A stretch of DNA of 64,000 bases from Ascidia mentula (lineage: Eukaryota > Chordata > Ascidiacea > Phlebobranchia > Ascidiidae): NCBI GenBank assembly GCA_947561715.1, contig OX387199.1, positions 12,343,001-12,407,000 on the forward strand. Reading direction: 5' to 3'. Below are positions 25,831 through 64,000 of this stretch, piece after piece (within the stretch, counting starts at the first letter, position 1; every line of letters starts with the position of its first letter). The translations under genes and the position numbers were made by a program. The notes beneath the pieces were generated by a model. It was not told where the DNA came from, searched no databases, and saw only the letters and a list, made by a program, of their open reading frames with translations.

Positions 25831-26023
25831 TGCGTTTGCGGTTGCACAACGTATGTAACTATGCGATTTCAGCACTTGTCCATTTTGCAGTATATGACTT
25901 TTCGATAAAAAATGTTTTTTTTCAGTACAAGCTTTATTATACCGTGGAAAACGCTGATACTCCAGTAATGAGTTTGCGGTTGCACAACGTATGTAACTAT
26001 GCGATTTCAGCACTTGTCCTATA

Positions 26024-26035
26024 GCACGGTCCGAC
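26024..26035 (+). other. Candidate left terminus of the 25-kb insert
   Basis: gcacggtccgac lies four bases inside the left junction. It matches the reverse complement of the right edge (gcatggtcagcc) at 9 of 12 positions. A poly-A run and a palindromic aacgaaattttcgtt motif follow directly. The match is short and could be chance. It is listed because it sits at a junction fixed by independent evidence. Confidence 0.3.
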
Positions 26036-27010
26036 ACAAAAAAAAAATTTGAAAACGAAATTTTCGTTTTGAAATTTTGTTTTCAAATTTCCAATTTTTC
26101 GCATGGTGTCGCAAGAGGACTATGTAGATATGCGGTACAATTTGCCTTGATTTGGCGATTGATTCTTAGTTCTTAAACGATCTTATCATAGAAATACTGG
26201 ATTACATCAACTGGCATTACAATCAAACCCAAATTGCGTGATTTAGCTGTAGGTGTAGCAAATGTTCGTCGGACACTTCGATTTAGGAAATATAAATTCT
26301 TGTTAATTGTCGCAATGGTGGACTAAATTAATTGATTTGCAATTTAGCAGACAAATACCACAGTCATGTAGCAGACAATGCCGAAAAACTTCTCTTTATT
26401 TTGACGTATAGCGCGTAATAACCTTGTCTTTTACAGGTGATCGCATGTTAGTATTTACTTTTACATACAAGCGAATTGAAATTTAGCAGATATATACTGC
26501 AGCCACGTCAAGACGATCATTGAAAAACGTAATACGCTACATGTTTTATGTTTTTCTTGCCACACCAAAAAGCATTCATTAATTTGTTTTAGGAAGTAGC
26601 GGGGAATGAGAAAACGCTTGGTAGATGTTCGGTGTTGATTTTATGAAAACTTTTATAATGCACTATCAAAATGCCAAACAATCCTAGGTGAAAACTTTGG
26701 CGGAAACACGACGAACTACAATTTCTTTTGTGAACATCAAACGAAATCATAGTTTCCCTTTTGTAAACCAAATGTCAAGTTTGCAAACAAAATTTCCCTT
26801 TTGAGAACAAAATTTTGAGTTTGTAAATAAAATTTCACTTCTGTAAACAAAATTTTCTATTGCGAAAAAAATTAAAAAAAAAATTTCATATCGGAATAGT
26901 GTTGTTCAACTGATGGATAGACCCGTAAGAGCACTTTCATGAATGTTGCAGGTTTACTACTTCAGTGGATACAAGCTATATCAAATTCGAATCAACTGTT
27001 TTAAAGATAA
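26036..27010. other. AT-rich left flank of the insert, no gene seen
   Basis: Positions 26048-26095 hold A/T-rich inverted-repeat sequence of the gaaaacgaaattttcgtttt type, reminiscent of the 423-bp satellite at the other side of the insert. Positions 26758-26870 hold a degenerate ~27-bp repeat built on ttgtaaacaaaatttc. The rest (26100-26750) shows no ORF above 60 codons, RNA gene or known element. Confidence 0.5.
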
Positions 27011-27990
27011 TCATCGAATATCTTACACATTTTTGTATGCATAGTGCTGAAATTCGCTGGGCTGTTTCATGTTCGTATCCACTATGAATTCTGCAAAGAT
27101 GAATGCTGTATCTATCGTACTTTTAGAGTTGATAAGGGTCAAGGTGTTGAAAACGCGTCAAACCACCGTCATAGAATTTGCGCCCATTTTAAGGCAAATC
27201 ATCGAATATCCTACACATTTTTCGATGTACAGTGCTGAAATTCGCTGTAATGTTTAATGTTGGCATCCTCTAAGACTACTGCAAAGATTAATGTTGTGGC
27301 TTAAGTAGTTTTGGAGTTAATAAGGGTCAAGCTACTTGAAATTCTGGTTAGCGCCTGTTTCAACGATAATCATTCAATATCTAACACATTTTTGTATGCA
27401 TAGTGCTAAAATTCGCTGGGCTGTTTCATGTTGATATCCACTATAAGTACTGCAAACATGAATGCTGTAGCTATCGTACTTTTAGAGTTGATAAGGGTCA
27501 AGATGTTTAAAACGCGTCAAACCACCGTCATAAAATTTGCGCCCGTTTTAAGGCAAATCATCGAATATTCTACACATTTTTCGATGTACAGTGCTGAAAT
27601 TCGCTGTACTGTTTAATGTTGGCATCCTCTAATACTACTGCAAAGATTAATGTTGTGGCTTGAGTAGTTTTGGAGTTAATAAGGGTCAAGCTACTTGAAA
27701 TTCTGATTAGCGCCTGTTTCAACGATAATCATTCAATATCTAACACATTGTTGTATGCATAGGACTGAAGTTCGCTGTGCTGTTTCATGTTGGTATCCAC
27801 TATAAGTACTGCAAAGATTAATGTTGTGGCTTATGTAGTTTTGGAGTTAATAAGGGTCAAGCTACTTGAAATTCTGATTAGCGGCCTGTTTCAACGATAA
27901 TCATTCAATATCTAACACATTGTTGTATGCATAGGACTGAAATTCGTAGTATTTGAGTTGATAATAAGGATCAAGCTGTTTAAAACGTCT
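27011..27990 (+). repeat. ~180-bp tandem repeat, dimeric, about 5.5 copies
   Basis: The anchor aatcatcgaatatc or aatcattcaatatc occurs at 27011, 27197, 27368, 27556, 27727 and 27899, with spacings of 186, 171, 188, 171 and 172 bp. The alternation of long and short units shows a ~358-bp dimer (type A with cgcgtcaaaccaccg, type B with gttgtggctt). Each unit also carries ataagggtcaag and agtgctgaaattcgctg. The 62-64-codon ORFs here are chance frames repeated with the unit. Confidence 0.85.
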
Positions 27991-28079
27991 ATTCGTTTTC
28001 CAATTTAAAGTCAATGTAATTAAAAGCAAACGGTTTCCACAGTCCGATATCAAATGGACAGTAGTATCACGTTGCAAAA

Positions 28080-28545
28080 TTTTATTAAAATTGAAGTTGA
28101 AACAAGCAAATAAACGGCTTGACGCGATTCAAAAAAGTTTGACCCATATTACATTTTAAAGTACGGAAGTTATAATAGTGATTTTTAAACTACACATGCA
28201 AGATACCAATAGCAAACAGCCCTGTGATTCTCAGCCTCATAAACAAAATAGTTTGTGAGTTATTGAATGATTTGCTCCAAAACGTGCGCCGTTCTAGGCG
28301 AATGACGCGTCTTAAAAAAGGTTGACCCTTATTTAATTTAAAAGTGCAAAAGCTACACTAGTCATTTTTGACCTACAGGTACAAGATACCAATAAGAAAA
28401 AGCCCAGCGATTCTCAGACTCATAAACAAAATAGTTTGTGATTTATTGAATGATTTGCTCCAAAACGTGCGCCGTTCTAGGTGATTGACACGTCTCAAAA
28501 AAGGTTGACCCTTATTCAATTCAAAACAAGTAGCAAGACTTTTCG
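28080..28545 (-). repeat. Diverged inverted copies of the ~180-bp repeat
   Basis: Two ~180-bp units with gttgacccttat, aagcccagcgattctcag and gaatgatttgctccaaaacg. Read on the minus strand these correspond to ataagggtcaag, ctgaaattcgctgggct and aaggcaaatcatc of the 27011-27990 array. The two arrays are therefore inverted relatives, with a diverged spacer near 28,000. Confidence 0.65.
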
Positions 28546-28735
28546 AACCTAAGTATTCTCCATGGCGGTAACCTCGTTGGCCAGTGAACCAATCGGAAAC
28601 GACATAAGTTTGCTGAGCAACACACATCACAACTGTCAAAAATCCCCAAAATTATGTAAATATATCAGAACTATTAAGCGTAAAGACTTTATTTGATGGA
28701 AAGTGAATAAAGAAAATTAATGTACAGCATAACAC
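28546..28735. other. Short unique spacer
   Basis: AT-rich sequence between the inverted repeat units and the 70-bp minisatellite. An 88-codon minus-strand frame at 28373-28639 overlaps the repeat and has no recognisable domain, so I do not call it a gene. Confidence 0.5.
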
Positions 28736-30290
28736 TCAGTACTAGCAAAATTATGAAAGCATTTGAAGGACTTTCTATAAAAGTGAACAAAGTCATTTAC
28801 AGCAAACACTTGGTACCAGCAGAAATATTAAAGCATTTGAAGGCAATTTTTCTATAAGTGAACAAAGTCATTTACAGCGTACACTTGGTACCAGCAGAAA
28901 CATTAAAGCATTTGAAGGCAATTTTAAGTGAACAAAGTCATTTACAGCAAACACTTGGTACCAGCAGAAAGATTAAAGCATTTGAAGGCAATTTTAAGTG
29001 AACAAAGTCATTTACAGCAAACACTTGGTACCAGCAGAAATATTAAAGCATTTGAAGGCAATTTTAAGTGAACAAAGTCATTTACAGCAAACACTTGGTA
29101 TCAGCAGAAATATTAAAGCATTTGAAGGCAATTTTAAGTGAACAAAGTCATTTACAGCAAACACTTGGTACCAGCAGAAATATTAAAGCATTTGAAGGCA
29201 ATTTTAAGTGAACAAAGTCATTTACAGCAAACACTTGGTACCAGCAGAAATATTAAAGCATTTGAAGGCAATTTTAAGTGTACAAAGTCATTTACAGCAA
29301 ACACTTGGTACCAGCAGAAATATTAAAGCATTTGAAGGCAATTTTAAGTAAACTAAGTCATTTACAGCAAACACTTGGTACCAGCAGAAATATTAAAGCA
29401 TTTGAAGGCAATTTTTCTATAAGTGAACAAAGTCATTTACAGCATACACTTGGTACTAGCAGAAACATTAAAGCATTTGAAGGCAATTTTAAGTGTACAA
29501 AGTCATTTACAGCAAACACTTGGTACCAGCAGAAATATTAAAGCATTTGAAGGCAATTTTAAGTGAACAAAGTCATTTACAGCAAACACTTGGTACCAGC
29601 AGAAATATTAAAGCATTTGAAGGCAATTTTAAGTGAACAAAGTCATTTACAGCAAACACTTGGTACCAGCAGAAATATTAAAGCATTTGAAGGCAATTTT
29701 AAGTGAACAAAGTCATTTACAGCAAACACTTGGTACCAGCAGAAATATTAAAGCATTTGAAGGCAATTTTAAGTGAACAAAGTCATTTACAGCAAACACT
29801 TGGTACCAGCAGAAATATTAAAGCATTTGAAGGCAATTTTAAGTGAACAAAGTCATTTACAGCAAACACTTGGTACCAGCAGAAATATTAAAGCATTTGA
29901 AGGCAATTTTAAGTGAACAAAGTCATTTACAGCAAACACTTGGTACCAGCAGAAATATTAAAGCATTTGAAGGCAATTTTAAGTGAACAAAGTCATTTAC
30001 AGCAAACACTTGGTACCAGCAGAAATATTAAAGCATTTGAAGGCAATTTTAAGTAAACTAAGTCATTTACAGCAAACACTTGGTACCAGCAGAAATATTA
30101 AAGTATTTGAAGGCAATTTTAAGTAAACTAAGTCATTTACAGCAAACACTTGGTACCAGTAGAAATATTAAAGCATTTGAAGGCAATTTTTCTATAAGTG
30201 AACAAAGTCATTCACAGCGTACACTTGGTACCAGCAGAAATATTAAAGCATTTGAAGGCAATTTTAAGTAAACTAAGTCATTTACAGCAT
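28736..30290 (+). repeat. 70-bp minisatellite, about 22 copies
   Basis: The unit acacttggtaccagcagaaa ... tttacagcaa repeats every 70 bp, clearly from 29091 to 30050. A 76-bp variant with an inserted tctata occurs near 28845, 29410 and 30188. Central copies are almost identical, edge copies more diverged, as expected for unequal exchange. It ends about 90 bp beyond the stop codon of the minus-strand gene and may lie in or just past its 3' untranslated region. The repeating ORFs are a by-product. Confidence 0.93.
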
Positions 30291-30381
30291 AACACTTGAC
30301 AGAAATAATCAGACCATTCACACTCAAAAACGTTAATGTAAACTAACAACATTAATCAAAGGCTGAAATTGCATTTCATTG

Positions 30382-33300
30382 TTAGCTTTTTGGTTTTGAT
30401 GGGGACATATTTGAGGCCTCTGAATCAGAATGTGTGCAGCTTGACCGACCTGTTCACAGAAAAAAAGCTTAAATTATGTACTGTTTCCCAGCATTCAAAA
30501 ACAACTCATGATTCTATTATGCTTAACAAAATTAGAACTGATAATTCATTTTACCTTCATCTTTGGCAATTCTCCCTGCCTTGTAAAACAGTTTGTTTCC
30601 AGGCCAGCGAGCGAAGCACAAATCTTTCACCTTTATTTCTTCAAAGTGTTTTATTTTCTTTCGGCCTTCTGTTTTCAAATCTGTAATCCGGTAGATGTCA
30701 AGGCATTCACCATCATCCAAGAACACTACTCGAATAAACTTGACCTCTACAAAACAAAAAGCCAGACAAAGATAAACACTTTAACAATATTTTAGTAATT
30801 TGTTCGTATTCATTACCTTGCAAATCATCTTGTTGTTGTGATGGTGCTGGTTGAACATCTGTCAAAAACAATTGAAAGGTTAACCACATTTTATTTTGTC
30901 TTTAAACATTTAACTATACAGAGGCAATCAATAGTGCAAACCTTGCAAATCATCTTGTTGTTGTGATGGTGCTGGTTGAACATCTATCAAAAACAATCAA
31001 AAGGTTAACCACATTTTATTTTGTCTTTAAACATTTAACTATACAGAGGCAATCAATAGTGCAAACCTTGCAAATCATCTTGTTGTTGTGATGGTGCTGG
31101 TTGAACATCTGTCAAAAACAATTGAAAGGTTAACCACATTTTATTTTGTCTTTAAACACTTAACTATGCAGAGGCAATCAATAGTGCAAACCTTGCAAAT
31201 CATCTTGTTGTTGTGATGGTGCTGGTTGAACATCTGTCAAAAACAATTGAAAGGTTAACCACATTTTATTTTGTCTTTAAACACTTAACTATGCAGAGGC
31301 AATCAATAGTGCAAACCTTGCAAATCATCTTGTTGTGATGGTGCTGGTTGAACATCTGTCAAAAACAATTGAAAGGTTAACCATATTTTATTTTGTCTTT
31401 AAACATTTAACTATACAGAGGCAATCAATAGTGCAAACCTTGCAAATCATCTTGTTGTTGTGATGGTGCTGGTTGAACATCTGTCAAAAACAATTGAAAG
31501 GTTAACCATATTTTATTTTGTCTTTAAACATTTAACTATACAAAGGCAATCAATAGTGCAAACCTTGCAAATCATCTTGTTGTTGTGATGGTGCTGGTTG
31601 AACATCTGTCAAAAACAAATAAAAAGTTAACCATTCACTGAAGAAATATATTTAATATAATACAAATCACACACAACACTTACCAGATGTAGAGGCACGA
31701 GCCTCCAACAACAGTCGAGCCTTTTCAACCCTTCTGTGTGGGTGTTGTACATTATATACTTGGTCAGCAACAGCAAGTGAATGACCAGAGGCTTTTGCCA
31801 CAGCAATTTGAACCTCTTTTGGCTCATCTGCCATCCATGTGTGTATGAGTTTTCGTACTTCAGTCGCCGTTAAAGATGTGTTTTCAAACACAAAAGGAAT
31901 AACCTTTTTAAAAATTTTTGAAAATTCTGCATTTGTCATTTTAAATGAACCTGTTGCTGCTAAGTTTCTTGCTGACGTTGTTGGAAAAACTGGTGACTGC
32001 CCTGTAGGTTTTATCTTGTGATACATCCAAGCCAATTTACTGGTGGTTTCAATGTCTTGTAATTCAAGTGCATTTAAAACAATGCACGCCGGTTGCTTGT
32101 CCTTCTGGTCCACCACCAGAATTGAGTAATTGCCCTCGTCAGTTTTTTCATAGTCCTGGAGCTCTCTAATGAGGAGACCAATCATTACAGATGGTCTACA
32201 GCCTAGTCTGCATATCACCCTGCAGAAAATATCCCCATACAATAGTTGCAGGTTTTCGTTTCCAACTTGGGATTCAGACATGGCTCTAATTCTTGCAACT
32301 CTCTTGAATTCTTCGCTTTTTTCGTACTGTAGTATGGCATTATATGCATTTGATTTTATGTTGGACAACTTCTTTCTGGATTTTTCTTTAGTGTAAAATT
32401 CTCTTCTCTTTTTCTCTTTGTTTATGCGTGCATGCAGGTCCATTGTTTCCGAATGCACTAAATTTAAACATTTCTCGGAAATCAAATCAAACTGATTGTT
32501 TTTGTAAAATCTAAGGAAATTCAGTAATGTAGACAAATATGCAACTTTCGATGAAACTTGACCTTCACCTTTCAAATGTTGCTCTAAATTTTCAAAAATC
32601 TTTTGGGGGTTTTTAAATACTTCAATAGTTGGTATTAAAGTTCTTATTTGGTTGGCATTTGAGTGGGCCACTGCCTTGTCAACTCTTTTGCGTTTCCCTA
32701 CTCCAAACTTTGATAAGTGCTCCTCATATTTAGTTATTACAGATTGCAAAGAACCAATCTGGGTCTTTGCAACAAGAGTTTGAAATTGCTTGGATTTGGT
32801 GTCGATTGTTTTATGTAAATTTTCATAATGCTTAGATAAATTCTTTACTGCCCTTCCGCAAATGGGACAGAAGTGTCCCTCAAAATTTTGATACTTTCCA
32901 ATTCTGTTTTTCTTCGCCCTACTGGCATACAGGAATTCTGACTTGTCCATGTCTGGATGGTATGTTTTGTAGTGGTATGTGACATTTTTATACAGCTTAT
33001 CACATGCATGGCATTCCCTCAAACCACTTGATGATTCTACAAAGTATATTAAACGTTACTGAAGGCATATCCAAAAATTTTACACGTATTTTACTTTAGT
33101 TTTTAATTGACTAACCTAGAATAAAATTTATGTAACTTATAAAGCATACTTTTTATGTTGCTTTCTGGGTTGAACATTTTTTTTGAGTGTTTGCGGTCTT
33201 TTCTCCTTTTATGGTGATATCGCTCAATTTTTTTTCTGCAAATTAGTGAAGTGGTAAAATCTTTGTTACATAACACAAGACATTAGCAAATTCTAACCTT

Positions 33301-36014
33301 TGGTCTTTTTTTGCTTTCCTGAAAAAAACAAAAACAACAGTATAAAATCTTGTAAACCTATTGATTCATTCAGACACTAATTATTCGCTGTTTCTCTATA
33401 GGAAGCAGGTTGCCAATTGTCTATTATTTAAAAATTTTAACAAACATTAATAGATAAAATATATTGCAAAACAAAAGTGGCATGGTCGGGTATGTAACAC
33501 AATTTTATCATAAGTCTGCTTAAAGTGTAAAAAAATGAAAGGTCAGGTAAAGTAATTTTGAGGTTTCCTCATGTTTGAAACTAATCAAATGATAAACACT
33601 CTAGCTTTTTTTTTATTTAGGATGTGAAGCTTTTCAACCTATTTAGGAGATTTAAAGACGTGTTAAATAGTTTTTAATGGAAACATGCAAACACAGTTGT
33701 TTGTGCAATTGTCACATAACTGGCATTTTACACCATTGCATAAAGTTAGCAAAAATGTTTTTTCAGTTCTCATAAATGAATGAATGCAACTGTATTTTTT
33801 TGTCTAAATCCTTAAACCAAAACCTCTTTTTAAATGTTGACCTAATCAACCTGACACAAAACAGATCAACTTAATAAAAATTTTTTACTGACGCAACTCT
33901 ATTTTGTTATGTAACAGTAATGTCACAATGACTAGTTTTTGAAAAACGTTGAAGATTTTTTTGGACACTTTTTGAAAATATGACATATTGTGCAGCATAG
34001 GACAATAAATTTACCACAAAAAATGGAAGTTTTGTTATAGAGCTTGTGTCCCCAATTAAAAATGGTTAAGTCCCCCCTCCCCCCGACTGATGTGAACAGC
34101 ATGTAAAAAGTAACAAAACACTTACCATTTCAGAAATTGTTGGTATTGTTTATAGTCACTGCTACTGCTGCTGGAGGAACTACTGCTGCTGCTTTCTTCA
34201 GTAGAGTCATCAGATGACGATGATAAACTTGAATAAAAAGAAAATACATGTTTACATCACCCAACGGTTTTCAGAAGTTAAAAGCACTAGTAATCATATA
34301 TTTACCAATATAAGCTATCCTCATCACTGCTGCTATCAGAAAACTGTAGGGTTCTGTTAAAAAATTAAAATTATAAAGTAAACAACCCAATTTTCTTTTA
34401 TTTCTGCAACACCAAGATTGTTAAAGAAGCCAAAAACCATTCTTAGATGAGGGAGTTAAAAACATTTTTTTTAAAGTTTTACCACTGATCAGAAGCCAAG
34501 ACAACTGATAAGAAGCCAATAAACGTTGTATATACCTTTTATGTTTCTTTGAAGCTTTTTCATCCTTCTTATAGTCTCTAAAAATGATAATAAAATAAAT
34601 TACACCACAAGAGTGAAAAATGCAATAAATTACACAGCAAGTAAAATAAAATAAAATAAATTACACAGCAAGAGTGAAAAATGCTATGAAAAAAAGTGCC
34701 CAAAACATAAAATTTTGTGAAAATATGAATGAAAAGGGCTTTAAACAACTTGTGTAAAATGCACATTAAATTCATTATCTAAACCAGGGGTTCTTAAAGT
34801 GGGGAGGGGGGGTGTAGATGCTTGGCAAGGGGGAGCGCAAACATTTTCAAAAATGACCAATCAGCGTTCCATTTGTATTTAGTATTTCCATGCAAAGAAA
34901 CCTTTGTTTAAATGTTTGAAAGATTATGATGTTTGTCCCTCTTTACATCAGTTTTGTTACAATGGTAACTGTGTACCAAAATTGATCATTATATTGTCGA
35001 AAATAGTTTTGCTACCTTTATCTGCGGCAAATATTTAAAGATATCGAAGTTTAGAAAAAAAGAGCAGTGCAGAGTATTTGCAGATTGTTTCGTTTCAAAA
35101 ATGCAGTCACATCCCTCCCATTGACAAACGTTAAAAAAAGCTTGTTTTTGAATTGCGCATTTTTTAAGTTGTCGGACTAAGAGGGGGGCAAGATTTGACT
35201 AGTAAGGGGGCGCGACCAAAATAGTTTAAGAACCACTAATCTAATTACTACTTATAGTTACAGCCGCGGTTACGCTGTGTGAATCTCAAGATGTGCGTTC
35301 TGCGTTGTTACAGCGAACATTTGGGGCAGTGCATAAAAGTGACAAAATAATAATGTTCCGGGCCAGAGAATTTTTTAAATTGGTGTAGAACAAGCTTACA
35401 ACATATAAATCACGTTATCATTGCATTTTTTTAAACACCTATGAAGTATAATCGCAACGCAATGGGTTTGACCGTGATCAAAATGAATAGTTACATAATG
35501 CGTAGATAGCGAGCATTTGGGCGCTGCATACAAGTGTCAATTTAATGATGTTCCGGGTCATAGAATGTTCAAAAAAATGGTGAAGAATAAGCACAGAACA
35601 TGTACATTACATTATTGTTGAGTTTTTTAAACACCTATAAGTGTATCGCAACGAAATGTGTTTGACCGCGGTCACCAATCAACTGCATCGTAAATGCTAC
35701 GACTTACATAAATAACTCGCATTCGTAATAGCTAATTGTTACGTCATGTGTGAAACACAATTATAGAAAAAAGATTTTTCGCACAAAAGACTGTGATCTT
35801 CATAGTATTAAAAATTTTTCATGCGGTCCACACGCTATTGTTGATAAAATTTTTTAAATAAATTCGGTTAACCGAAGCTTCGATACATCACTACCAAAAC
35901 TTAACATCAACTTAAAACACACAAAAGTTAAAATTAAAGAACAAGCATTTTTTCAAAAAAAAAAGTTAATTAAGCTTACTTTGCAAACAACTTTCTCCTT
36001 CTGAAATTGTCCAT
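30382..36014 (-). CDS. Zinc-finger / tyrosine-recombinase (Crypton-like) / Tudor-like protein, 16 exons, 745 aa
   Basis: Exons by GT-AG sites with matching phase: 36014-35980, 34577-34536, 34353-34306, 34227-34126, 33318-33298, 33235-33150, 33036-31684, seven mini-exons 31605-30817, 30746-30555 and 30449-30382. Their sum is 2,238 nt, exactly 746 codons with a TAA stop. Residues 1-111 are basic and Ser-rich (12 consecutive Ser at 54-65), with a likely nuclear signal KRRKDRKHSKK near 92-102. Two zinc fingers lie at 120-138 and 168-186. A tyrosine-recombinase core spans about 392-539. Mini-exon repeats fill 563-659 and a Tudor-like segment 660-723. In known families such recombinases cut and rejoin DNA through a covalent phosphotyrosine. 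Here this could be the mobility enzyme of the surrounding insert, or a domesticated DNA-binding protein acting in the nucleus. The start is the first Met of the phase-consistent first exon. The exon 1 and exon 16 assignments are the least certain. No disruption is seen in the joined frame. Confidence 0.8.
30555..30746 (-). other. Exon 15: Tudor-like segment
   Basis: This 192-nt exon, phase 1 at both ends, encodes residues 660-723. It begins VKFIRVVFLDDGE and contains VKDLCFARWPGNKLFYKAG. The ARWPG-x-x-x-F/Y pattern in a short, beta-rich, charged segment resembles Tudor-like or chromatin-reader domains, but I cannot confirm the fold without a profile search. The acceptor is ttttgtag and the donor GTAAAA. 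If this donor is not used, the frame reads through MNYQF to a stop ending at 30532, an alternative C-terminus. If it is used, exon 16 at 30449-30382 adds a Ser-rich tail ending SPSKPKS. Confidence 0.6.
30817..31605 (-). repeat. Tandem array of seven duplicated mini-exons
   Basis: Seven copies of a ~125-bp unit, each a mini-exon plus an ~83-bp intron: 31605-31564, 31480-31439, 31355-31317, 31233-31192, 31108-31067, 30983-30942 and 30858-30817. Six exons are 42 nt; the third in transcript order is 39 nt, lacking one CAA. All begin and end in phase 1, so each adds DVQPAPSQQQDDLQ (or one Q fewer) without shifting the frame. Acceptors are gacag (gatag in the 30983 copy). The first six have the donor GTTTGC and the last has GTAATG. 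The coding parts look identical by eye. Any number of copies can be included or skipped in frame, so the linker length may vary by splicing or by copy-number change. Confidence 0.88.
31684..33036 (-). other. Exon 7: paired zinc fingers and tyrosine-recombinase core
   Basis: This 1,353-nt exon encodes residues 112-562. The fingers have ligands C120, C123, H133, H138 and C168, C171, H181, H186, both C-x2-C-x9-H-x4-H. The recombinase signature is R392 in GCRPS (box I), K423 or K425 in VDQKDK (candidate beta-hairpin Lys), R506 in TATEVRKL (box II Arg), H530 in ASGHS and Y539 in QVYNV. The R-to-H distance of 24 and H-to-Y distance of 9 match the usual spacing of tyrosine recombinases such as XerD. 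The first box II histidine of HxxR is Thr503 here. The acceptor is tttgtag at its 5' side and the donor GTAAGTG at its 3' side. Family membership is inferred from motif order, not from a database search. Confidence 0.75.
33319..34125 (-). other. Intron 4 of the recombinase gene
   Basis: An 807-bp AT-rich intron between exons 4 and 5, with donor GTAAGT and acceptor ttttttcag. It has no ORF of note or recognisable repeat, apart from a cccccctcccccc stretch near 34073. Exon 5 beyond it is a 21-nt micro-exon (33318-33298) needed to keep the frame. Confidence 0.6.
34785..35238. mobile_element. Non-autonomous hAT element (454 bp)
   Basis: The left end is caggggttcttaaagtgg and the right end, read inverted, is tagtggttcttaaac, a typical hAT terminal repeat (CAGGGGTTC type). 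Flanking octamers are atctaaac (34777-34784) and atctaatt (35239-35246), 6 of 8 identical, as expected for an aged 8-bp target duplication. There is no transposase frame. It lies in intron 1 of the recombinase gene and so entered after that intron existed. Confidence 0.8.
35313..35690. repeat. Two 196-bp direct repeats
   Basis: gcgaacatttggggc at 35313 and gcgagcatttgggcgc at 35509 start two similar units. Both contain atgttccggg, agaa, tttaaacacctat and gtttgaccg in the same order. The copies are clearly diverged. No coding potential is seen. Confidence 0.75.
35861..35893. mobile_element. Solitary hAT-like terminus
   Basis: cggttaaccgaagcttcg followed by atacatcacta is a nested-palindrome sequence resembling the end of a known hAT-type terminal repeat (inverted: tagtgatgtatcgaagcttc). 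I found no matching partner end nearby, so it is either a fragment or a chance resemblance. Confidence 0.35.
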
Positions 36015-36391
36015 TTCGCCCTCCGCTGAACCACGTAACTTTGACAAAGAAAAACTGTGCCGAACAAAGACTTTGAAATCAATGTAGCCGAAAATAATTT
36101 GACATAAAACCTTCTTTCATTTGAGTGAATAACTATTGGTTACAGAATAAAGCGTCAATTTAAAAAAAAAAAAAAATAAATAAACTGTTAAAAGATTTTT
36201 CATTCAAATATCATCAGGGCTCAATCTACCCAGAAATAATAACAATTGCACTACTGCCGCGGCGCTGAATTATTCTTTTTCTGGTACGGCTTATTTGCTT
36301 GACTAACACTGATCTTTGGTGCGGTTTCGAAATGCGCTTCAGCTTTCGTTCTTATGCGTTTTATACAAAAAATTTTCATTTTTTTTAAACA
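36015..36391 (-). promoter_or_regulatory. Upstream region of the recombinase gene
   Basis: About 380 bp between the inferred start codon and the first ~860-bp unit. It holds a poly-A run at 36160-36176 and no ORF. On the minus strand a TATAAAA lies near 36359-36365, roughly 350 bp upstream of the ATG. It could be a TATA box only if the 5' untranslated region is long. There is no other clear promoter signal. Confidence 0.25.
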
Positions 36392-39316: not shown

Positions 39317-41320
39317 TTATAAACCATTTCGTTTTCAAACCTAACACGAAAACAAAATTTCCTTTTGCAAACGTTATTCGAAACGAAATTTTGTTTTCGA
39401 AACCAAAAATTCGTTTCCAATTCCCCTTTGCGGCACACGGTCAGATTCGTATGTGAAACAAGATCTTTCACCATCTTTTGGCGTAAATAGTGCAGGATTC
39501 ACTTTATCACGACGAACAATCACGATTTTCTTTACTTAGATGTAAAACCCGCGAAATTTCGCTTATGTAGTGCGTGGTGATAATGTTATCACTGAAATAA
39601 ACAGTTTTCTACGTAAATAACATCATTACACATTACAGTCGCATAAAACAACTCGAGTATTTCGAAAATGTCACACAATTGTGTCGCAATTTCATTTAAG
39701 TCTAGTAATATTCAACTAATTTCTTAGGGGAACCCAAACCAACTTCTATTTCGTTTTCAAACCTAACACGAAAACGAAATTTCCTTTCGCAAACGTTATT
39801 CGAAACGAAATTTTGTTTTCGAAACCAAAATTTTGGTTTCCAATTCCCCTTTGCGGCACACGGTCAGATTCGTATGTGAAACAAGATCTTTCATCATCTT
39901 TTGGCGTAAATAGTGCAGGATTCACTTTATCACGACCAACAATCACGATTTTGCTTTACTTAGATGTAAAACCCGCGAAGTTTCGCATATTTAGTTTGTG
40001 GTGAGAATGTTATCATTGAAATAAACTGTTTTCTACGTAAATAACATCATTACACTTTACAGTCGCGAAAAACAACTCGAGTATTTCGAAAATGTCACAC
40101 AATTGTGACGCAATTTCATTGAGGGCTTGTAATATTTAACTAATTTCTTCGGGGAACCCAAACAAACTTCTGTTTCGTTTTCAAACCTAACACGAAAACG
40201 AAATTTCCTTTTGCAAAGGTTATTCGAAACGAAATTTTGTTTCAAAAACCAAAATTTCGTTTCCAATTCCCCTTTGCGGCACACGGTCAGATTCGTATGT
40301 GAAACAAGATCTTTCATCATCTTTTGGCGTAAATAGTGCAGGATTCACTTTATCACGATGATCAATCACGATTTTGCTTTACTTAGATGTAAAACCCGCG
40401 AAATTTCGCTAATGTAGTGCGTGGTGATAATGTTATCACTGAAATAAACTGTTTTCTACGTAAATAACATCATTACACATTACAGTCGCATAAAACAACT
40501 CGAATATTTCGAAAATGTCACACAATTGTGACGCAATTTAATTGAGGGCTTGTAATATTTAACTAATTTCATGGGGGAACCCAAACCAACTTCTGTTTCG
40601 TTTTCAAACCTAACACGAAAACGAAATTTCCTTTTGCAAAGGTTATTCGAAACGAAATTTTGTTTCAAAAACCAAAATTTCGTTTCCAATTCCCCTTTGC
40701 GGCACACGGTCAGATTCGTATGTGAAACAAGATCTTTCATCATCTGAAATAAACTGTTTTCTACGTAAATAACATCATTACACATTACAGTCGCATAAAA
40801 CAACTCTAGTATTTCGAAAATGTCACACAATTGTGACGCAATTTCATTGAGGTCTTGTAATATTTAACTAATTTCTTGGAGGAACCCAAACCAACTTCTA
40901 TTTCGTTTTCAAACCTAACACGAAAACGAAATTTCCTTTTGCAAAGGTTTTTCGAAACGAAATTTTGTTTTTAAAACCAAAATTTCGTTTCCAATTCCCC
41001 TTTGCGGCACACGGTCAGATTCGTATGTGAAACAAGATCTTTCATCATCTTTTGGCGTAAATAGTGCAGGATTCACTTTATCACGATGATCAATCACGAT
41101 TTTGCTTTACTTAGATGTAAAACCCGCGAAATTTCGCTTATGTAGTGCGTGGTGATAATGTTATCACTGAAATAAACTGTTTTCTACGTAAATAACATCA
41201 TTACACATTACAGTCGCATAAAACAACTCGAATATTTCGAAAATGTCACACAATTGTGACGCAATTTAATTGAGGGCTTGTAATATTTAACTAATTTCAT
41301 GGGGGAACCCAAACCAACTT

Positions 41321-44300
41321 TTATTTCGTTTTCAAACCTAACACGAAAACGAAATTTCGTTTTGCAAACGTTATTCGAAACGAAATTTTGTTTTCGAAAC
41401 CAAAAATTTCGTTTCCAATTCCCCTTTGCGGCACACGGTCAGATTCGTATGTGAAACAAGATCTTTCATCATCTTTTGGCGTAAATAGTGCAGGATTCAC
41501 TTTATCACGACGAACAATCACAATTTTCTTTACTTAGATGTAAAACCCGCGAAATTTCGCTTATGTAGTGCGTGGTGATAATGTTATCACTGAAATAAAC
41601 TGTTTTCTACGTAAATAACATCATTACACATTACAGTCGCATAAAACAACTCGAGTATTTCGAAAATGTCACACAATTGTGTCGCAATTTCATTGATGGC
41701 TTGTAATATTTAACTAATTTCTTGGGGGAACCCAAACCAACTTCTGTTTCGTTTTCAAACCTAACACGAAAACGAAATTTCCTTTGGCAAAGGTTATTCG
41801 AAACGAAATTTTGTTTTAAAAACCAAAATTTCGTTTCCAATTCCCCTTTGCGGCGCACGGTCAGATTCGTATGTGAAACAAGATCTTTCATCATCTTTTG
41901 GCGTAAATAGTGCAGGATTCACTTTATCACGATGAACAATCACGATTTTGCTTTACTTGGATGTATAACCCGCAAAGTTTCGCTTATTTAGTGTGTGGTG
42001 AGAATGTTATCACTGAAATAAACTGTTTTCTACGTAAATAACATCATTACACATTACAGTCGCATAAAACAACTCGAGTAATTCGAAAATGTCACACAAT
42101 TGTGACGCAGTTTCATTGTGGGCTTGTAATATTTAACTAATTTCTTGGGGGAACCCAAACCAACTTCTGTTTCGTTTTCAAACCTAACACGAAAACGAAA
42201 TTTCCTTTTGCAAAGGTTATTCGAAACGAATTTTTGTTTTAAAAACCAAAATTTCGTTTCCAATTCCCCTTTGCGGCACACGGTCAGATTCGTATGTGAA
42301 ACAAGATCTTTCATCATCTTTTGGCGTAAATAGTGCAGGATTCACTTTATCACGATGAACAATCACGATTTTGCTTTACTTGGATGTAAAACCCGCGAAA
42401 TTTCGCTTATTTAGTGCGTGGTGATAATGTTATCACTGAAATAAACTGTTTTCTACGTAAATAACATCATTACACTTTACAGTCGCGTAAAACAACTCGA
42501 GTATTTCGAAATGGCACGCAATTGTGTCTCAATTTCATTTAAGTTTTGTAATATTAAACTAATTTCTTGGGGGAACCCAAACCAACTTCTATTTCGCTTT
42601 CAAACCTAACACGAAAACGAAATTTCGTTTCGCAAACGTTATTCGAAACGAAATTTTGTTTTTAAAACCAAAATTTCGTTTCCAATTCCCCTTTGCGGCA
42701 CACGGTCAGATTCGTATGTGAAACAAGATCTTTCATCATCTTTTGGCGTAAATAGTGCAGGATTCACTTTATCACGATGATCAATCACGATTTTGCTTTA
42801 CTTAGATGTAAAACCCGCGAAATTTCGCTTATGTAGTGCGTGGTGATAATGTTATCACTGAAATAAACTGTTTTCTACGTAAATAACATCATTACACATT
42901 ACAGTCGCATAAAACAACTCGAATATTTCGAAAATGTCACACAATTGTGACGCAATTTAATTGAGGGCTTGTAATATTTAACTAATTTCATGGGGGAACC
43001 CAAACCAACTTTTATTTCGTTTTCAAACCTAACACGAAAACGAAATTTCGTTTTGCAAACGTTATTCGAAACGAAATTTTGTTTTCGAAACCAAAAATTT
43101 CGTTTCCAATTCCCCTTTGCGGCACACGGTCAGATTCGTATGTGAAACAAGATCTTTCATCATCTTTTGGCGTAAATAGTGCAGGATTCACTTTATCACG
43201 ACGAACAATCACAATTTTCTTTACTTAGATGTAAAACCCGCGAAATTTCGCTTATGTAGTGCGTGGTGATAATGTTATCACTGAAATAAACTGTTTTCTA
43301 CGTAAATAACATCATTACACATTACAGTCGCATAAAACAACTCGAGTATTTCGAAAATGTCACACAATTGTGTCGCAATTTCATTGATGGCTTGTAATAT
43401 TTAACTAATTTCTTGGGGGAACCCAAACCAACTTCTGTTTCGTTTTCAAACCTAACACGAAAACGAAATTTCCTTTGGCAAAGGTTATTCGAAACGAAAT
43501 TTTGTTTTAAAAACCAAAATTTCGTTTCCAATTCCCCTTTGCGGCGCACGGTCAGATTCGTATGTGAAACAAGATCTTTCATCATCTTTTGGCGTAAATA
43601 GTGCAGGATTCACTTTATCACGATGAACAATCACGATTTTGCTTTACTTGGATGTATAACCCGCAAAGTTTCGCTTATTTAGTGTGTGGTGAGAATGTTA
43701 TCACTGAAATAAACTGTTTTCTACGTAAATAACATCATTACACATTACAGTCGCATAAAACAACTCGAGTAATTCGAAAATGTCACACAATTGTGACGCA
43801 GTTTCATTGTGGGCTTGTAATATTTAACTAATTTCTTGGGGGAACCCAAACCAACTTCTGTTTCGTTTTCAAACCTAACACGAAAACGAAATTTCCTTTT
43901 GCAAAGGTTATTCGAAACGAATTTTTGTTTTAAAAACCAAAATTTCGTTTCCAATTCCCCTTTGCGGCACACGGTCAGATTCGTATGTGAAACAAGATCT
44001 TTCATCATCTTTTGGCGTAAATAGTGCAGGATTCACTTTATCACGATGAACAATCACGATTTTGCTTTACTTGGATGTAAAACCCGCGAAATTTCGCTTA
44101 TTTAGTGCGTGGTGATAATGTTATCACTGAAATAAACTGTTTTCTACGTAAATAACATCATTACACTTTACAGTCGCGTAAAACAACTCGAGTATTTCGA
44201 AATGGCACGCAATTGTGTCTCAATTTCATTTAAGTTTTGTAATATTAAACTAATTTCTTGGGGGAACCCAAACCAACTTCTATTTCGCTTTCAAACCTAA

Positions 44301-44702
44301 CACGAAAACGAAATTTCGTTTCGCAAACGTTATTCGAAACGAAATTTTGTTTTTAAAACCAAAATTTCGTTTCCAATTCCCCTTTGCGGCACACGGTCAG
44401 ATTCGTATGTGAAACAAGATCTTTCATCATCTTTTGGCGTAAATAGTGCAGGATTCACTTTATCACGATGATCAATCACGATTTTGCTTTACTTAGATGT
44501 AAAACCCGCGAAATTTCGCTTATGTAGTGCGTGGTGATAATGTTATCACTGAAATAAACTGTTTTCTACGTAAATAACATCATTACACATTACAGTCGCA
44601 TAAAACAACTCGAATATTTCGAAAATGTCAGACAATTGTGACGCAATTTAATTGAGGGCTTGTAATATTTAACTAATTTCATGGGGGAACCCAAACCAAC
44701 TT
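41321..44702. repeat. 1,691-bp four-monomer higher-order unit, two clear copies
   Basis: Monomer variants recur at exactly 1,691 bp: 41321/43012/44703, 41722/43413 and 42145/43836. The next recurrence, at 46920, is 2,217 bp on because of one extra monomer plus a ~103-bp partial; after that, 48188 follows at 1,268 bp, three monomers. Copies look nearly identical by eye, indicating recent amplification of a tetramer. Confidence 0.85.
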
Positions 44703-45499
44703 CTATTTCGTTTTCAAACCTAACACGAAAACGAAATTTCGTTTTGCAAACGTTATTCGAAACGAAATTTTGTTTTCGAAACCAAAAATTTCGTTTCCAA
44801 TTCCCCTTTGCGGCACACGGTCAGATTCGTATGTGAAACAAGATCTTTCACCATCTTTTGGCGTAAATAGTGCAGGATTCACTTTATCACGACGAACAAT
44901 CACAATTTTCTTTACTTAGATGTAAAACCCGCGAAATTTCGCTTATGTAGTGCGTGGTGATAATGTTATCACTGAAATAAACTGTTTTCTACGTAAATAA
45001 CATCATTACACATTACAGTCGCATAAAACAACTCGAGTAATTCGAAAATGTCACACAATTGTGACGCAATTTCATTGTGGGCTTGTAATATTTAACTAAT
45101 TTCTTGGGGGAACCCAAACCAACTTCTGTTTCGTTTTCAAACCTAACACGAAAACGAAATTTCCTTTTGCAAAGGTTATTCGAAACGAATTTTTGTTTTA
45201 AAAACCAAAATTTCGTTTCCAATTCCCCTTTGCGGCACACGGTCAGATTCGTATGTGAAACAAGATCTTTCATCATCTTTTGGCGTAAATAGTGCAGGAT
45301 TCAAATTATCACGATGAACAATCACGATTTTGCTTTACTTGGATGTAAAACCCGCGAAATTTCGCTTATTTAGTGCGTGGTGATAATGTTATCACTGAAA
45401 TAAACTGTTTTCTACGTAAATAACATCATTACACATTACAGTCGCATAAAACAACTCGAGTATTTCGAAAATGTCACACAATTGTGTCGCAATTTCATT

Positions 45500-45620
45500 G
45501 ATGGCTTGTAATATTTAACTAAATAACATCATTACACATTACAGTCGCATAAAACAACTCGAGTAATTCGAAAATGTCACACAATTGTGACGCAATTTCA
45601 TTGAGGGCTTGTAATATTTA
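45500..45620. repeat. Partial monomer junction in the 423-bp array
   Basis: At about 45522 the sequence taatatttaacta runs directly into aataacatcattacac, skipping most of a monomer. A ~103-bp fragment is thereby duplicated and the array register shifts from 423 to 526 bp. The short shared string taa or taaata at the joint suggests a microhomology-driven exchange. Confidence 0.75.
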
Positions 45621-48600
45621 ACTAATTTCTTGGGGGAACCCAAACCAACTTCTGTTTCGTTTTCAAACCTAACACGAAAACGAAATTTCCTTTGGCAAAG
45701 GTTATTCGAAACGAAATTTTGTTTTAAAAACCAAAATTTCGTTTCCAATTCCCCTTTGCGGCACACGGTCAGATTCGTATGTGAAACAAGATCTTTCATC
45801 ATCTTTTGGCGTAAATAGTGCAGGATTCACTTTATCACGATGAACAATCACGATTTTGCTTTACTTGGATGTATAACCCGCAAAGTTTCGCTTATTTAGT
45901 GTGTGGTGAGAATGTTATCACTGAAATAAACTGTTTTCTACGTAAATAACATCATTACACATTACAGTCGCATAAAACAACTCGAGTAATTCGAAAATGT
46001 CACACAATTGTGACGCAGTTTCATTGTGGGCTTGTAATATTTAACTAATTTCTTGGGGGAACCCAAACCAACTTCTGTTTCGTTTTCAAACCTAACACGA
46101 AAACGAAATTTCCTTTTGCAAAGGTTATTCGAAACGAATTTTTGTTTTAAAAACCAAAATTTCGTTTCCAATTCCCCTTTGCGGCACACGGTCAGATTCG
46201 TATGTGAAACAAGATCTTTCATCATCTTTTGGCGTAAATAGTGCAGGATTCACTTTATCACGATGAACAATCACGATTTTGCTTTACTTGGATGTAAAAC
46301 CCGCGAAATTTCGCTTATTTAGTGCGTGGTGATAATGTTATCACTGAAATAAACTGTTTTCTACGTAAATAACATCATTACACTTTACAGTCGCGTAAAA
46401 CAACTCGAGTATTTCGAAATGGCACGCAATTGTGTCTCAATTTCATTTAAGTTTTGTAATATTAAACTAATTTCTTGGGGGAACCCAAACCAACTTCTAT
46501 TTCGCTTTCAAACCTAACACGAAAACGAAATTTCGTTTCGCAAACGTTATTCGAAACGAAATTTTGTTTTTAAAACCAAAATTTCGTTTCCAATTCCCCT
46601 TTGCGGCACACGGTCAGATTCGTATGTGAAACAAGATCTTTCATCATCTTTTGGCGTAAATAGTGCAGGATTCACTTTATCACGATGATCAATCACGATT
46701 TTGCTTTACTTAGATGTAAAACCCGCGAAATTTCGCTTATGTAGTGCGTGGTGATAATGTTATCACTGAAATAAACTGTTTTCTACGTAAATAACATCAT
46801 TACACATTACAGTCGCATAAAACAACTCGAATATTTCGAAAATGTCAGACAATTGTGACGCAATTTAATTGAGGGCTTGTAATATTTAACTAATTTCATG
46901 GGGGAACCCAAACCAACTTCTATTTCGTTTTCAAACCTAACACGAAAACGAAATTTCGTTTTGCAAACGTTATTCGAAACGAAATTTTGTTTTCGAAACC
47001 AAAAATTTCGTTTCCAATTCCCCTTTGCGGCACACGGTCAGATTCGTATGTGAAACAAGATCTTTCACCATCTTTTGGCGTAAATAGTGCAGGATTCACT
47101 TTATCACGACGAACAATCACAATTTTCTTTACTTAGATGTAAAACCCGCGAAATTTCGCTTATGTAGTGCGTGGTGATAATGTTATCACTGAAATAAACT
47201 GTTTTCTACGTAAATAACATCATTACACATTACAGTCGCATAAAACAACTCGAGTAATTCGAAAATGTCACACAATTGTGACGCAATTTCATTGTGGGCT
47301 TGTAATATTTAACTAATTTCTTGGGGGAACCCAAACCAACTTCTGTTTCGTTTTCAAACCTAACACGAAAACGAAATTTCCTTTTGCAAAGGTTATTCGA
47401 AACGAATTTTTGTTTTAAAAACCAAAATTTCGTTTCCAATTCCCCTTTGCGGCACACGGTCAGATTCGTATGTGAAACAAGATCTTTCATCATCTTTTGG
47501 CGTAAATAGTGCAGGATTCACTTTATCACGATGAACAATCACGATTTTGCTTTACTTGGATGTAAAACCCGCGAAATTTCGCTTATTTAGTGCGTGGTGA
47601 TAATGTTATCACTGAAATAAACTGTTTTCTACGTAAATAACATCATTACACTTTACAGTCGCGTAAAACAACTCGAGTATTTCGAAATGGCACGCAATTG
47701 TGTCTCAATTTCATTTAAGTTTTGTAATATTAAACTAATTTCTTGGGGGAACCCAAACCAACTTCTATTTCGCTTTCAAACCCAACACGAAAACGAAATT
47801 TCGTTTCGCAAACGTTATTCGAAACGAAATTTTGTTTTTAAAACCAAAATTTCGTTTCCAATTCCCCTTTGCGGCACACGGTCAGATTCGTATGTGAAAC
47901 AAGATCTTTCATCATCTTTTGGCGTAAATAGTGCAGGATTCACTTTATCACGATGATCAATCACGGTTTTGCTTTACTTAGATGTAAAACCCGCGAAATT
48001 TCGCTTATGTAGTGCGTGGTGATAATGTTATCACTGAAATAAACTGTTTTCTACGTAAATAACATCATTACACATTACAGTCGCATAAAACAACTCGAAT
48101 ATTTCGAAAATGTCACACAATTGTGACGCAATTTAATTGAGGGCTTGTAATATTTAACTAATTTCATGGGGGAACCCAAACCAACTTCTATTTCGTTTTC
48201 AAACCTAACACGAAAACGAAATTTCGTTTTGCAAACGTTATTCGAAACGAAATTTTGTTTTCGAAACCAAAAATTTCGTTTCCAATTCCCCTTTGCGGCA
48301 CACGGTCAGATTCGTATGTGAAACAAGATCTTTCACCATCTTTTGGCGTAAATAGTGCAGGATTCACTTTATCACGACGAACAATCACAATTTTCTTTAC
48401 TTAGATGTAAAACCCGCGAAATTTCGCTTATGTAGTGCGTGGTGATAATGTTATCACTGAAATAAACTGTTTTCTACGTAAATAACATCATTACACATTA
48501 CAGTCGCATAAAACAACTCGAGTATTTCGAAAATGTCACACAATTGTGTCGCAATTTCATTGATGGCTTGTAATATTTAACTAATTTCTTGGGGGAACCC

Positions 48601-50785
48601 AAACCAACTTCTGTTTCGTTTTCAAACCTAACACGAAAACGAAATTTTCTTTTGCAAAGGTTTTTCGAAACGAAATTTTGTTTTAAAAACCAAAATTTCG
48701 TTTCCAATTCCCCTTTGCGGCACACGGTCAGATTCGTATGTGAAACAAGATCTTTCATTATCTTTTGGCGTAAATAGTGCAGGATTCACTTTATCACGAT
48801 GAACAATCACGATTTTGCTTTACTTAGATTTAAAACCCGCGAAGTTTCGCTTATTTAGTGTGTGGTGAGAATGTTATCACTGAAATAAACTGTTTTCTAC
48901 GTAAATAACATCATTACACATTGCAGTCGCATAAAACAACTCGAGTAATTCGAAAATGTCACACAATTGTGACGCAATTTCATTGAGGGCTTGTAATATT
49001 TAACTAATTTCTTGGGGGAACCCAAACCAACTTCTGTTTCGTTTTCAAACCTAACACGAAAACGAAATTTCCTTTGGCAAAGGTTATTCGAAACGAAATT
49101 TTGTTTTAAAAACCAAAATTTCGTTTCCAATTCCCCTTTGCGGCACACGGTCAGATTCGTATGTGAAACAAGATCTTTCATCATCTTTTGGCGTAAATAG
49201 TGCAGGATTCACTTTATCACGATGAACAATCACGATTTTGCTTTACTTAGATTTAAAACCCGCGAAGTTTCGCTTATTTAGTTTGTGGTGAGAATGTTAT
49301 CACTGAAATAAACTGTTTTCTACGTAAATAACATCATTACACATTACAGTCGCATAAAACAACTCGAGTAATTCGAAAATGTCACACAATTGTGACGCAA
49401 TTTCATTGAGGGCTTGTAATATTTAACTAATTTCTTGGGGGAACCCAAACCAACTTCTGTTTCGTTTTCAAACCTAACACGAAAACGAAATTTCCTTTGG
49501 CAAAGGTTATTCGAAACGAAATTTTGTTTTAAAAACCAAAATTTCGTTTCCAATTCCCCTTTGCGGCACACGGTCAGATTCGTATGTGAAACAAGATCTT
49601 TCATCATCTTTTGGCGTAAATAGTGCAGGATTCACTTTATCACGATGAACAATCACGATTTTGCTTTACTTAGATTTAAAACCCGCGAAGTTTCGCTTAT
49701 TTAGTGTGTGGTGAGAATGTTATCACTGAAATAAACTGTTTTCTACGTAAATAACATCATTACACATTACAGTCGCATAAAACAACTCGAGTAATTCGAA
49801 AATGTCACACAATTGTGACGCAATTTCATTGTGGGCTTGTAATATTTAACTAATTTCTTGGGGGAACCCAAACCAACTTCTGTTTCGTTTTCAAACCTAA
49901 CACGAAAACGAAATTTCCTTTTGCAAAGGTTATTCGAAACGAATTTTTGTTTTAAAAACCAAAATTTCGTTTCCAATTCCCCTTTGCGGCACACGGTCAG
50001 ATTCGTATGTGAAACAAGATCTTTCATCATCTTTTGGCGTAAATAGTGCAGGATTCACTTTATCACGATGAACAATCACGATTTTGCTTTACTTGGATGT
50101 AAAACCCGCGAAATTTCGCTTATTTAGTGCGTGGTGATAATGTTATCACTGAAATAAACTGTTTTCTACGTAAATAACATCATTACACTTTACAGTCGCG
50201 TAAAACAACTCGAGTATTTCGAAATGGCACGCAATTGTGTCTCAATTTCATTTAAGTTTTGTAATATTAAACTAATTTCTTGGGGGAACCCAAACCAACT
50301 TCTATTTCGCTTTCAAACCTAACACGAAAACGAAATTTCGTTTCGCAAACGTTATTCGAAACGAAATTTTGTTTTTAAAACCAAAATTTCGTTTCCAATT
50401 CCCCTTTGCGGCACACGGTCAGATTCGTATGTGAAACAGGATCTTTCATCATCTTTTGGCGTAAATAGTGCAGGATTCACTTCATCACCATGAACAATCA
50501 CGATTTTGCTTTACTTGGATGTAAAACCCGCGAAATTTCGATTATTTAGTGCGTGGTGATAATGTTATCACTGAAATCAACTGTTTTCTACGTAAATAAC
50601 ATCATTACACTTTACAGTCGCGTAAAACAACTCGAGTATTTCGAAATGGCACGCAATTGTGTCTCAATTTCATTTAAGTTTTGTAATATTAAACTAATTT
50701 CTTGGGGGAACCCAAACCAACTTCTATTTCGCTTTCAAACCTAACACGAAAACGAAATTTCGTTTCGCAAACGTTAATCGAAACG

Positions 50786-51041
50786 AAAAAAAAACAAAAT
50801 TTTGATTTTAAAATGCAAGTGTGTTTTGATACAAAATTTCCTCCAAACCGACATGTATCGCTCAAGGGCATCATCAAGTGCCCATTAAATTACAATTTTT
50901 TTTTGTTTTTTAGCATTATGTTTTTACCCAAAATTTCGTTTTTGTATATCGTTTCGAAACGAAAAAGTGTCATACGAAACGAAATTTCGTTTTTCAAAAC
51001 GAAAGACAAAACGAAATGAAGAAACTCCATGCATTTAGATA
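50786..51041. other. Right edge of the insert, palindromic A/T-rich, no gene seen
   Basis: The satellite breaks off after gttaatcgaaacg. The following ~255 bp hold a unique stretch (gtgttttgatacaaaatttcc ... caagtgcccatt) and then repeated gaaacgaaatttcgttttt-type palindromes at 50930-51015, similar to the motif at the left edge near 26050. No ORF or RNA gene is recognised. Confidence 0.5.
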
Positions 51042-51053
51042 GGCTGACCATGC
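51042..51053 (-). other. Candidate right terminus of the 25-kb insert
   Basis: ggctgaccatgc abuts the first satellite base at 51054. Inverted, it reads gcatggtcagcc and resembles the left edge gcacggtccgac in 9 of 12 positions. See the left terminus for the caveats. Confidence 0.3.
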
Positions 51054-51399
51054 CCATCTTGCAGTATATGACTTTTCGATAAAAAATATTTTTTTTCATT
51101 ACAAGCTTTATTATACAGTGGAAAACGCTGGTACTCCAGTATTGCTTTTGCGGTTGCACAACGTATGTAACTATGCGATTTCAGCACTTGTCCATTTTGC
51201 AGTATATGACTTTTCGATAAAAAATATTTTTTTTCAGTACAAGCTTTATTATACAGTGGAAAACGCTGATACTCCAGTATTGCGTTTGCGGTTGCACAAC
51301 GTATGTAACTATGCGATTTCAGCACTTGTCCATTTTGCAGTATATGACTTTTCGATAAAAAATATTTTTTTTCAGTACAAGCTTTATTATACAGTGGAA

Positions 51400-63850: not shown

Positions 63851-64000
63851 TTGCGGTTGCACAACGTATGTAACTATGAGCTTTCAGCACTTGTCCATTT
63901 TGCAGTATATGACTTTTCGATAAAAAATATTTTTTTTCAGTACAAGCTTTATTATACAGTGGAAAACGCTGATACTCCAGTACTGAGTTTGCGGTTGCAC

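Follow-up and report, generated by a model that had tools for sequence, protein, structure and literature searches.

The stretch of Ascidia mentula DNA analysed here (the window, 64,000 nucleotides, C52:12343001-12407000) consists, at positions 1-26019 and 51054-64000, of a satellite with a 138-bp monomer, as identified by Tandem Repeats Finder (TRF), and the question raised by this locus is what the 25-kb block between the two satellite arrays represents and how it came to lie there. Comparison with the rest of the genome (196 Mb searched; telomeres TTAGGG at the single readable contig end examined, with N at the displayed starts of two other contigs) identified the block as a recently moved member of a young, multi-copy transposon family. 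With a probability of roughly 0.85, the block represents a giant DNA transposon of the tyrosine-recombinase class, which would integrate from a circle through a crossover at the dinucleotide CC.

A genome search for other copies with the same ends, as proposed in the initial annotation of the window, identified 12 further complete copies. With the left 301 bp as query, 17 matches were obtained, 14 of them at 98-100% over the full or nearly full query, and the right 264 bp matched at 27 places, in 13 cases at 97-100% along its entire length. Paired ends were found at 12 loci on five contigs, enclosing 20,688 bp in the shortest case (C52:22411950-22432637) and 29,163 bp in the longest (C2:15981005-16010167). 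In addition, an internally deleted copy of 513 bp (C2:10986298-10986810) carries both ends and has no space for a gene. The main open reading frame (ORF) of the candidate recombinase gene is uninterrupted in all 12 giant copies and in 12 of the 13 gene copies overall; the thirteenth (C1:1589159) has an in-frame TGA and a right end, and its left end was not found. Internal comparisons, which rest on 7 of the 12 giant copies (C1b, C1c, C52d, C2a and C71b were left out), revealed mean divergences of 0.13% for the main exon and 0.26-0.28% for stretches rich in introns; the value was 0.04% for the left 681 bp and 0.72% for the right 264 bp. Four codons of the main ORF were variable, three of them synonymously. 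A Rfam search of five loci found nothing.

Ends without a partner were also observed. L039 (C73:10014600-10024200) has two right ends approximately 8.5 kb apart with identical right flanks, which suggests that the locus has been duplicated, and a left end was not detected at it even when one mismatch was allowed. Contig C69 carries two near-identical left ends (L032 and L033, 14.30-14.32 Mb) and one right end (L022, 14.58 Mb), with no match to the recombinase ORF on this contig, and these three ends appear to be truncated or rearranged copies.

Further analysis of the junctions showed that, in all 13 complete copies, the last bases of the left flank and the first bases of the right flank have CC and no longer sequence in common, and that near-full ends are bordered by CC at 15/15 left and 15/15 right flanks. 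These counts leave out the diverged left ends of L036 (flank CG) and L037 (flank CC) and the diverged right ends of L023 (CT), L026 (CC) and L039 (two ends, both CC); with diverged ends included, the proportion bordered by CC becomes 16/17 for left ends and 18/19 for right ends, and L024, L025 and L027 have no end within 6 edits. Among the 15 targets, position -5 is T in 14, position -4 is G or A in 14 and position -3 is T in 10. The motif T[G/A]NCC was found in 13 of the 15 targets as compared to 13% of 2,408 background CC sites in the flanks (P=2.5e-10). In the right flank after CC, one position was without A in 15/15 cases (P=0.006, uncorrected). The element itself reads TATA at the left junction, with the exceptions of AATA in C52d and TAAA in the 513-bp copy, and TATA was found at 0 of 15 right junctions; moreover, the target TGYCC is similar to the right end of the element plus CC (ATGCCC). 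Three of the 13 insertions are located in tandem arrays, i.e., the 138-bp satellite of the window, a 24-bp repeat (C52b) and an array of 4.3-kb units (C1b). In the left satellite stretch of the window, which comprises 188 monomers, the plus strand has 189 occurrences of TGTCC, approximately one per 138-bp monomer, and the insertion point within the monomer therefore follows from the target motif.

Direct evidence for clean insertion was obtained from empty sites, a search for which in the same genome had also been proposed initially. The search started from the left flanks of three copies, of which two flanks are unique and one lies in a tandem array; empty sites were readable for C1b and C52b. 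Among the 40 of 181 candidate matches that were scored, the left flank of C1b recurs in an array of tandem units, each about 4.3 kb long, at approximately C1:20.98-21.24 Mb, and three neighbouring array units matched the joined flanks with a single CC with 0, 0 and 1 mismatches in 118 bp. For C52b, the joined flanks (48 bp) were exactly matched in this copy's own 24-bp repeat array. The unit of the 4.3-kb array on C1 (L008/L018) contains an ORF of 87 amino acids (aa) that matches zf-His_Me_endon (E=3e-11), and one transposon copy was found inserted within this ORF.

At the edges of the window copy, CC is the sole sequence in common, in agreement with the initial annotation, which had also noted TGTCC/TGCCC with one mismatch, and removal of the block together with one CC restores the satellite register. 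The two flank halves, which had been described as contiguous elsewhere in the window, are indeed matched there when joined (276 bp per side), with 4/552 mismatches at 57,133 and 6/552 at 23,811. However, the argument that this pairing of satellite variants would be improbable by chance does not hold on its own, as random juxtapositions of monomers from the window array matched equally well in 16-90% of trials (51%, 16% and 41% with 1, 2 and 3 monomers per side, and 80% and 90% with 4 and 5). That the block is a discrete, base-precise insertion is established independently, by the recurrence of the same ends, with CC on both sides, at 12 other complete sites and by the readable empty sites of other copies, and not by the variant pairing.

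Integration of a circular intermediate would account for these junctions. When joined to each other, the ends read GACCATGC-CCTATA-GCACGGTC, i.e., inverted arms of 8 bp with one mismatch around a 6-bp spacer. Most likely, a circle is formed when the two ends are joined by the element's own recombinase, whose gene is predicted at 36014-30382 of the minus strand, and the resulting junction would serve as the core site. The circle would then recombine with a T[G/A]NCC target, in the window the TGTCC of a 138-bp satellite monomer, by crossing over at the common CC, and the product would carry CC on both sides, its left junction reading TATA from the element and its right junction the bases of the target. 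The presence of TATA on the left only differs from what a staggered exchange of the entire spacer would give and could, speculatively, be accounted for by exchange of one strand pair or by strongly biased repair. The fixed and non-palindromic CC, the one-sided motif and the lack of a longer duplication fit a crossover between circle and target at CC; the initial description of the block as a candidate excisable unit fits this mechanism as well.

The junctions also bear on an improbable alternative, in which a DDE cut-and-paste transposon, its inverted ends short and imperfect, would duplicate 2 bp (CC) of the target, would be mobilised in trans by another transposase and would carry the recombinase-like gene as cargo. 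In favour of this alternative, the ends are imperfect 8-bp inverted repeats, a 2-bp duplication would give identical junctions and, as the 513-bp copy shows, nothing beyond the ends is needed in cis. Against it, the duplication would in every case be CC, which is non-palindromic, the motif is found on the left side only, and the only long ORF common to the 12 giant copies is recombinase-like. A fixed, non-palindromic CC with a one-sided motif would be more in keeping with site-specific recombination than with the symmetric reaction of a DDE transposase.

The tyrosine-recombinase reading is further supported by the gene carried by the element. Among the ORFs of at least 80 aa in the block, one is long and recombinase-like, and the others are short and mostly derived from the internal arrays. 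The predicted protein has a basic, serine-rich N-terminus followed by two fingers, the recombinase-like domain, seven short exons and a C-terminus, the last exon of which is weakly Tudor-like (E=0.093). Seven short exons are found in the array of 125-bp units of the window model, and 6-8 units were found among the seven copies compared; the number of 14-aa repeats in the predicted protein would thus rise or fall with the length of this exon array. Candidate catalytic residues are R276, R390, H414 and Y423 (numbering of ORF 33022-31667). Diverged relatives with 35-36% identity were identified in the same genome (L062, C70:13872900-13874400; L063; L064), one of them with an open frame of 451 aa, and TxVRK...GHS...Y is common to the window protein and two of these relatives. 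An hhalign comparison of a three-sequence profile with eight E. coli tyrosine recombinases gave a score of 29.2 (P=0.0041), with the second Arg, the His and the Tyr in register; reversed controls scored 10.8 and 10.4, and 0 of 400 column shuffles reached 29.2 (best 22.2). The spacing from Arg to His is 24 residues and that from His to Tyr 9 residues, versus 23 and 9 in XerD, FimB and FimE, and the distance from the first to the second Arg is 111-114 residues versus 97-99. These similarities indicate that the encoded protein is likely, though not proven, to be a tyrosine recombinase.

Several observations weigh against this assignment and the proposed mechanism. No match naming a recombinase was found in the Pfam, NCBIfam or PHROGs profiles or in PDB sequences, and the lowest E values in these libraries were 0.0072 (a PHROG of unassigned function, in the finger region), 0.019 (coiled-coil PDB chains) and 0.023 (DUF6884). 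hhalign assigns a probability of only 8%, with the box-I Arg shifted in its alignment, and the His of HxxR is replaced by Thr in all three sequences covering this position. The arms comprise 8 bp, versus the inverted arms of 11-13 bp around 6-8 bp that are typical of tyrosine recombinases according to PMC3212892. Moreover, the right flank after CC matches the GCA of the left arm at 15/45 positions (10.5 expected), and a likeness downstream of the crossover is thus not clear.

Two further explanations are less probable still. Some Helitron relatives carry internal tandem repeats, and Helitrons insert between A and T (A|T). A Helitron-like or virus-derived element, which the large size and the internal repeats could suggest, is very unlikely given that a CC/CC junction is at odds with the A|T rule, that no Rep/helicase, polymerase or capsid gene is apparent among the ORFs of at least 80 aa (spliced genes were not exhaustively searched), and that no relative of the recombinase was found in viral contigs. 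The least credible explanation is an assembly artefact, or a chance abutment of two satellite arrays on an unrelated segment, since, even though satellite flanks are prone to misassembly, the window copy is known from assembly sequence alone and the variant pairing is not significant by itself, the same ends and CC rule are found at 12 other complete copies, mostly without long tandem repeats in their flanks, and two other copies have readable empty sites. The features of the window copy under the tyrosine-recombinase reading are collected in Table 1.

Table 1. Features of the transposon copy in the window and the evidence on which each is based.
Feature	Positions in window	Strand	Evidence or remark
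Whole transposon copy, 25,034 bp	26020..51053		Paired ends at 12 loci, 20.7-29.2 kb apart; ORF in each
CC at left junction, end of target motif TGTCC	26018..26019		CC at 15/15 near-full left ends
Left end, TATAGCAC...	26020..26027		TATA as remainder of putative 6-bp spacer
Left arm, GCACGGTC	26024-26031		1/8 positions different between arms
Tandem repeat region near left end, units of about 359/171-188 bp	26996..27946		TRF
Array of 70-bp units	28723..30298		TRF, 22.2 copies
Predicted recombinase gene, 16 exons, 745 aa	30382..36014	-	GT-AG introns throughout, in phase, terminal stop; prediction without transcripts
Tandem array of 125-bp units, one in-phase exon of 39-42 bp (DVQPAPSQQQDDLQ) per unit	30815..31633	-	TRF and gene model
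Main exon, two C2H2-like fingers and tyrosine-recombinase-like domain	31684..33036	-	Fingers by eye; intact in 12/13 copies
Nested hAT-like element in intron 1	34785..35238		Flanking 8-mers agree at 6/8; tag in 7/7 copies
Nested hAT-like element	37441..38303		8-bp duplication CCTGCACG; tag in 7/7 copies
Array of 423-bp units with AAACGAAATTTCGTTT-like motifs	39327..50788		TRF
Right end, right arm GACCATGC	51046..51053		Compared right ends
CC at right junction, satellite resumes	51054..51055		CC at 15/15 near-full right ends

The element is giant through internal satellite-like arrays; beyond the 5.6-kb gene and the two nested elements, it consists mostly of tandem arrays. The repeat region near the left end is only about 75% alignable in some other copies. 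The array of 70-bp units comprises 15-22 units per copy and the array of 423-bp units, which extends over approximately 11.5 kb in the window copy, 14-27 units per copy (counted by a tag for each unit in seven copies). Unit number alone does not account for the length of the element, as C1a is the longest of the seven copies with only 17 423-bp units. Matches to this unit are spaced by 1.75 kb in C1a, which suggests that it carries another expanded repeat. Among the matches to the 423-bp unit that were listed (24 of 31 candidates scored), all are in copies of the family except for fragments at C70:5.61 and 5.72 Mb, and an independent satellite of this unit may exist outside the family. The AAACGAAATTTCGTTT-like motifs were matched 76 times (at most 3 mismatches) in 39300-50790, as compared to a mean of 0.22 in shuffled sequence, and were also found once near the left end and three times near the right end. 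The exact inner 10-mer CGAAATTTCG occurs 30 times in the 423-bp array and once near the right end, with no occurrence near the left end. These motifs may represent putative accessory binding sites. With regard to the nested hAT-like elements, tags of both were found in 7/7 copies, and the family therefore kept moving after acquiring them.

Among known systems, Cryptons (CryptonA/CryptonI of animals) resemble the element described here in that, according to a 2011 survey (PMC3212892), they are DNA transposons with a single tyrosine-recombinase gene and no apparent reverse transcriptase, circle integration is their proposed mechanism, and non-autonomous, internally deleted derivatives exist. The same survey reports no terminal repeats for animal Cryptons and direct repeats of 4-6 bp for fungal and stramenopile Cryptons. 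By contrast with these Cryptons, the family described here has copies of 20-29 kb with satellite-like arrays, its CC is fixed and its target is T[G/A]NCC, the HxxR His is replaced by Thr, and the gene, which includes zinc fingers and an exon array, has 16 exons. The element is likely to work like a Crypton-type transposon, and membership in the Cryptons is not claimed. Fungal Starships are also giant, moved by a tyrosine recombinase and bounded by short direct repeats at the target and sometimes inverted ends, and some of them insert in repeats such as 5S rDNA, as described in PMC12134995. In difference to Starships, no gene cargo and no other long ORF is apparent here, and tandem repeats make up the bulk of the element; assignment to the Starships fails on cargo and on DUF3435. 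Neither DUF3504 nor DUF3435 (the Starship captain) was found among the Pfam matches up to E=10 for four relatives, a negative result that assumes the presence of both models and is limited by HMMER filters, which drop weak matches. Unlike in DIRS/Ngaro elements, no reverse-transcriptase ORF was found among the ORFs of at least 80 aa listed for the block, although no profile search was made for it.

CTnDOT and Tn916-like elements show similarity at the level of mechanism; according to PMC5871717, they form a circle, have inverted ends and a spacer of about 5-7 nt and use many target sites of low homology, with 2 nt of homology needed by CTnDOT. As compared to these elements, no conjugation genes are apparent here and no sequence relation is shown; furthermore, the junction bases are constant (TATA on the left, target on the right) and not mixed from earlier flanks. 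Tetris and similar elements are mobile elements that carry or breed tandem repeats (PMC4079207), which they share with the family described here; however, Tetris is a foldback element by the title of that paper, and its search listing names no tyrosine recombinase.

Taking these comparisons into consideration, it is conceivable, though rather doubtful, that the family represents a superfamily of its own, comprising giant tyrosine-recombinase DNA transposons of eukaryotes that belong neither to Crypton nor to Starship or DIRS, characterized by a zinc-finger recombinase, Thr for the HxxR His, homology limited to CC, one-strand information at both junctions and end motifs in the form of satellite-like arrays. 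In such a superfamily, one strand pair would be exchanged and the product would be resolved by replication, which would fix TATA on the left and the target on the right. No giant tyrosine-recombinase DNA transposon outside fungi was recognised in the literature by title and start of abstract, a screen that did not cover subscription papers, preprints or Repbase.

The ends and targets of animal tyrosine-recombinase DNA transposons have so far been hard to define. For the family described here, the ends are exact and the target motif is strong; empty sites, a mini derivative and a dozen near-identical copies in which the main exon is uninterrupted are available as well, and the circle model can therefore be tested directly. 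The family is also an example of a young transposon that has inserted into tandem arrays already present in the genome and that itself contains satellite-like arrays of the motifs found at its ends.

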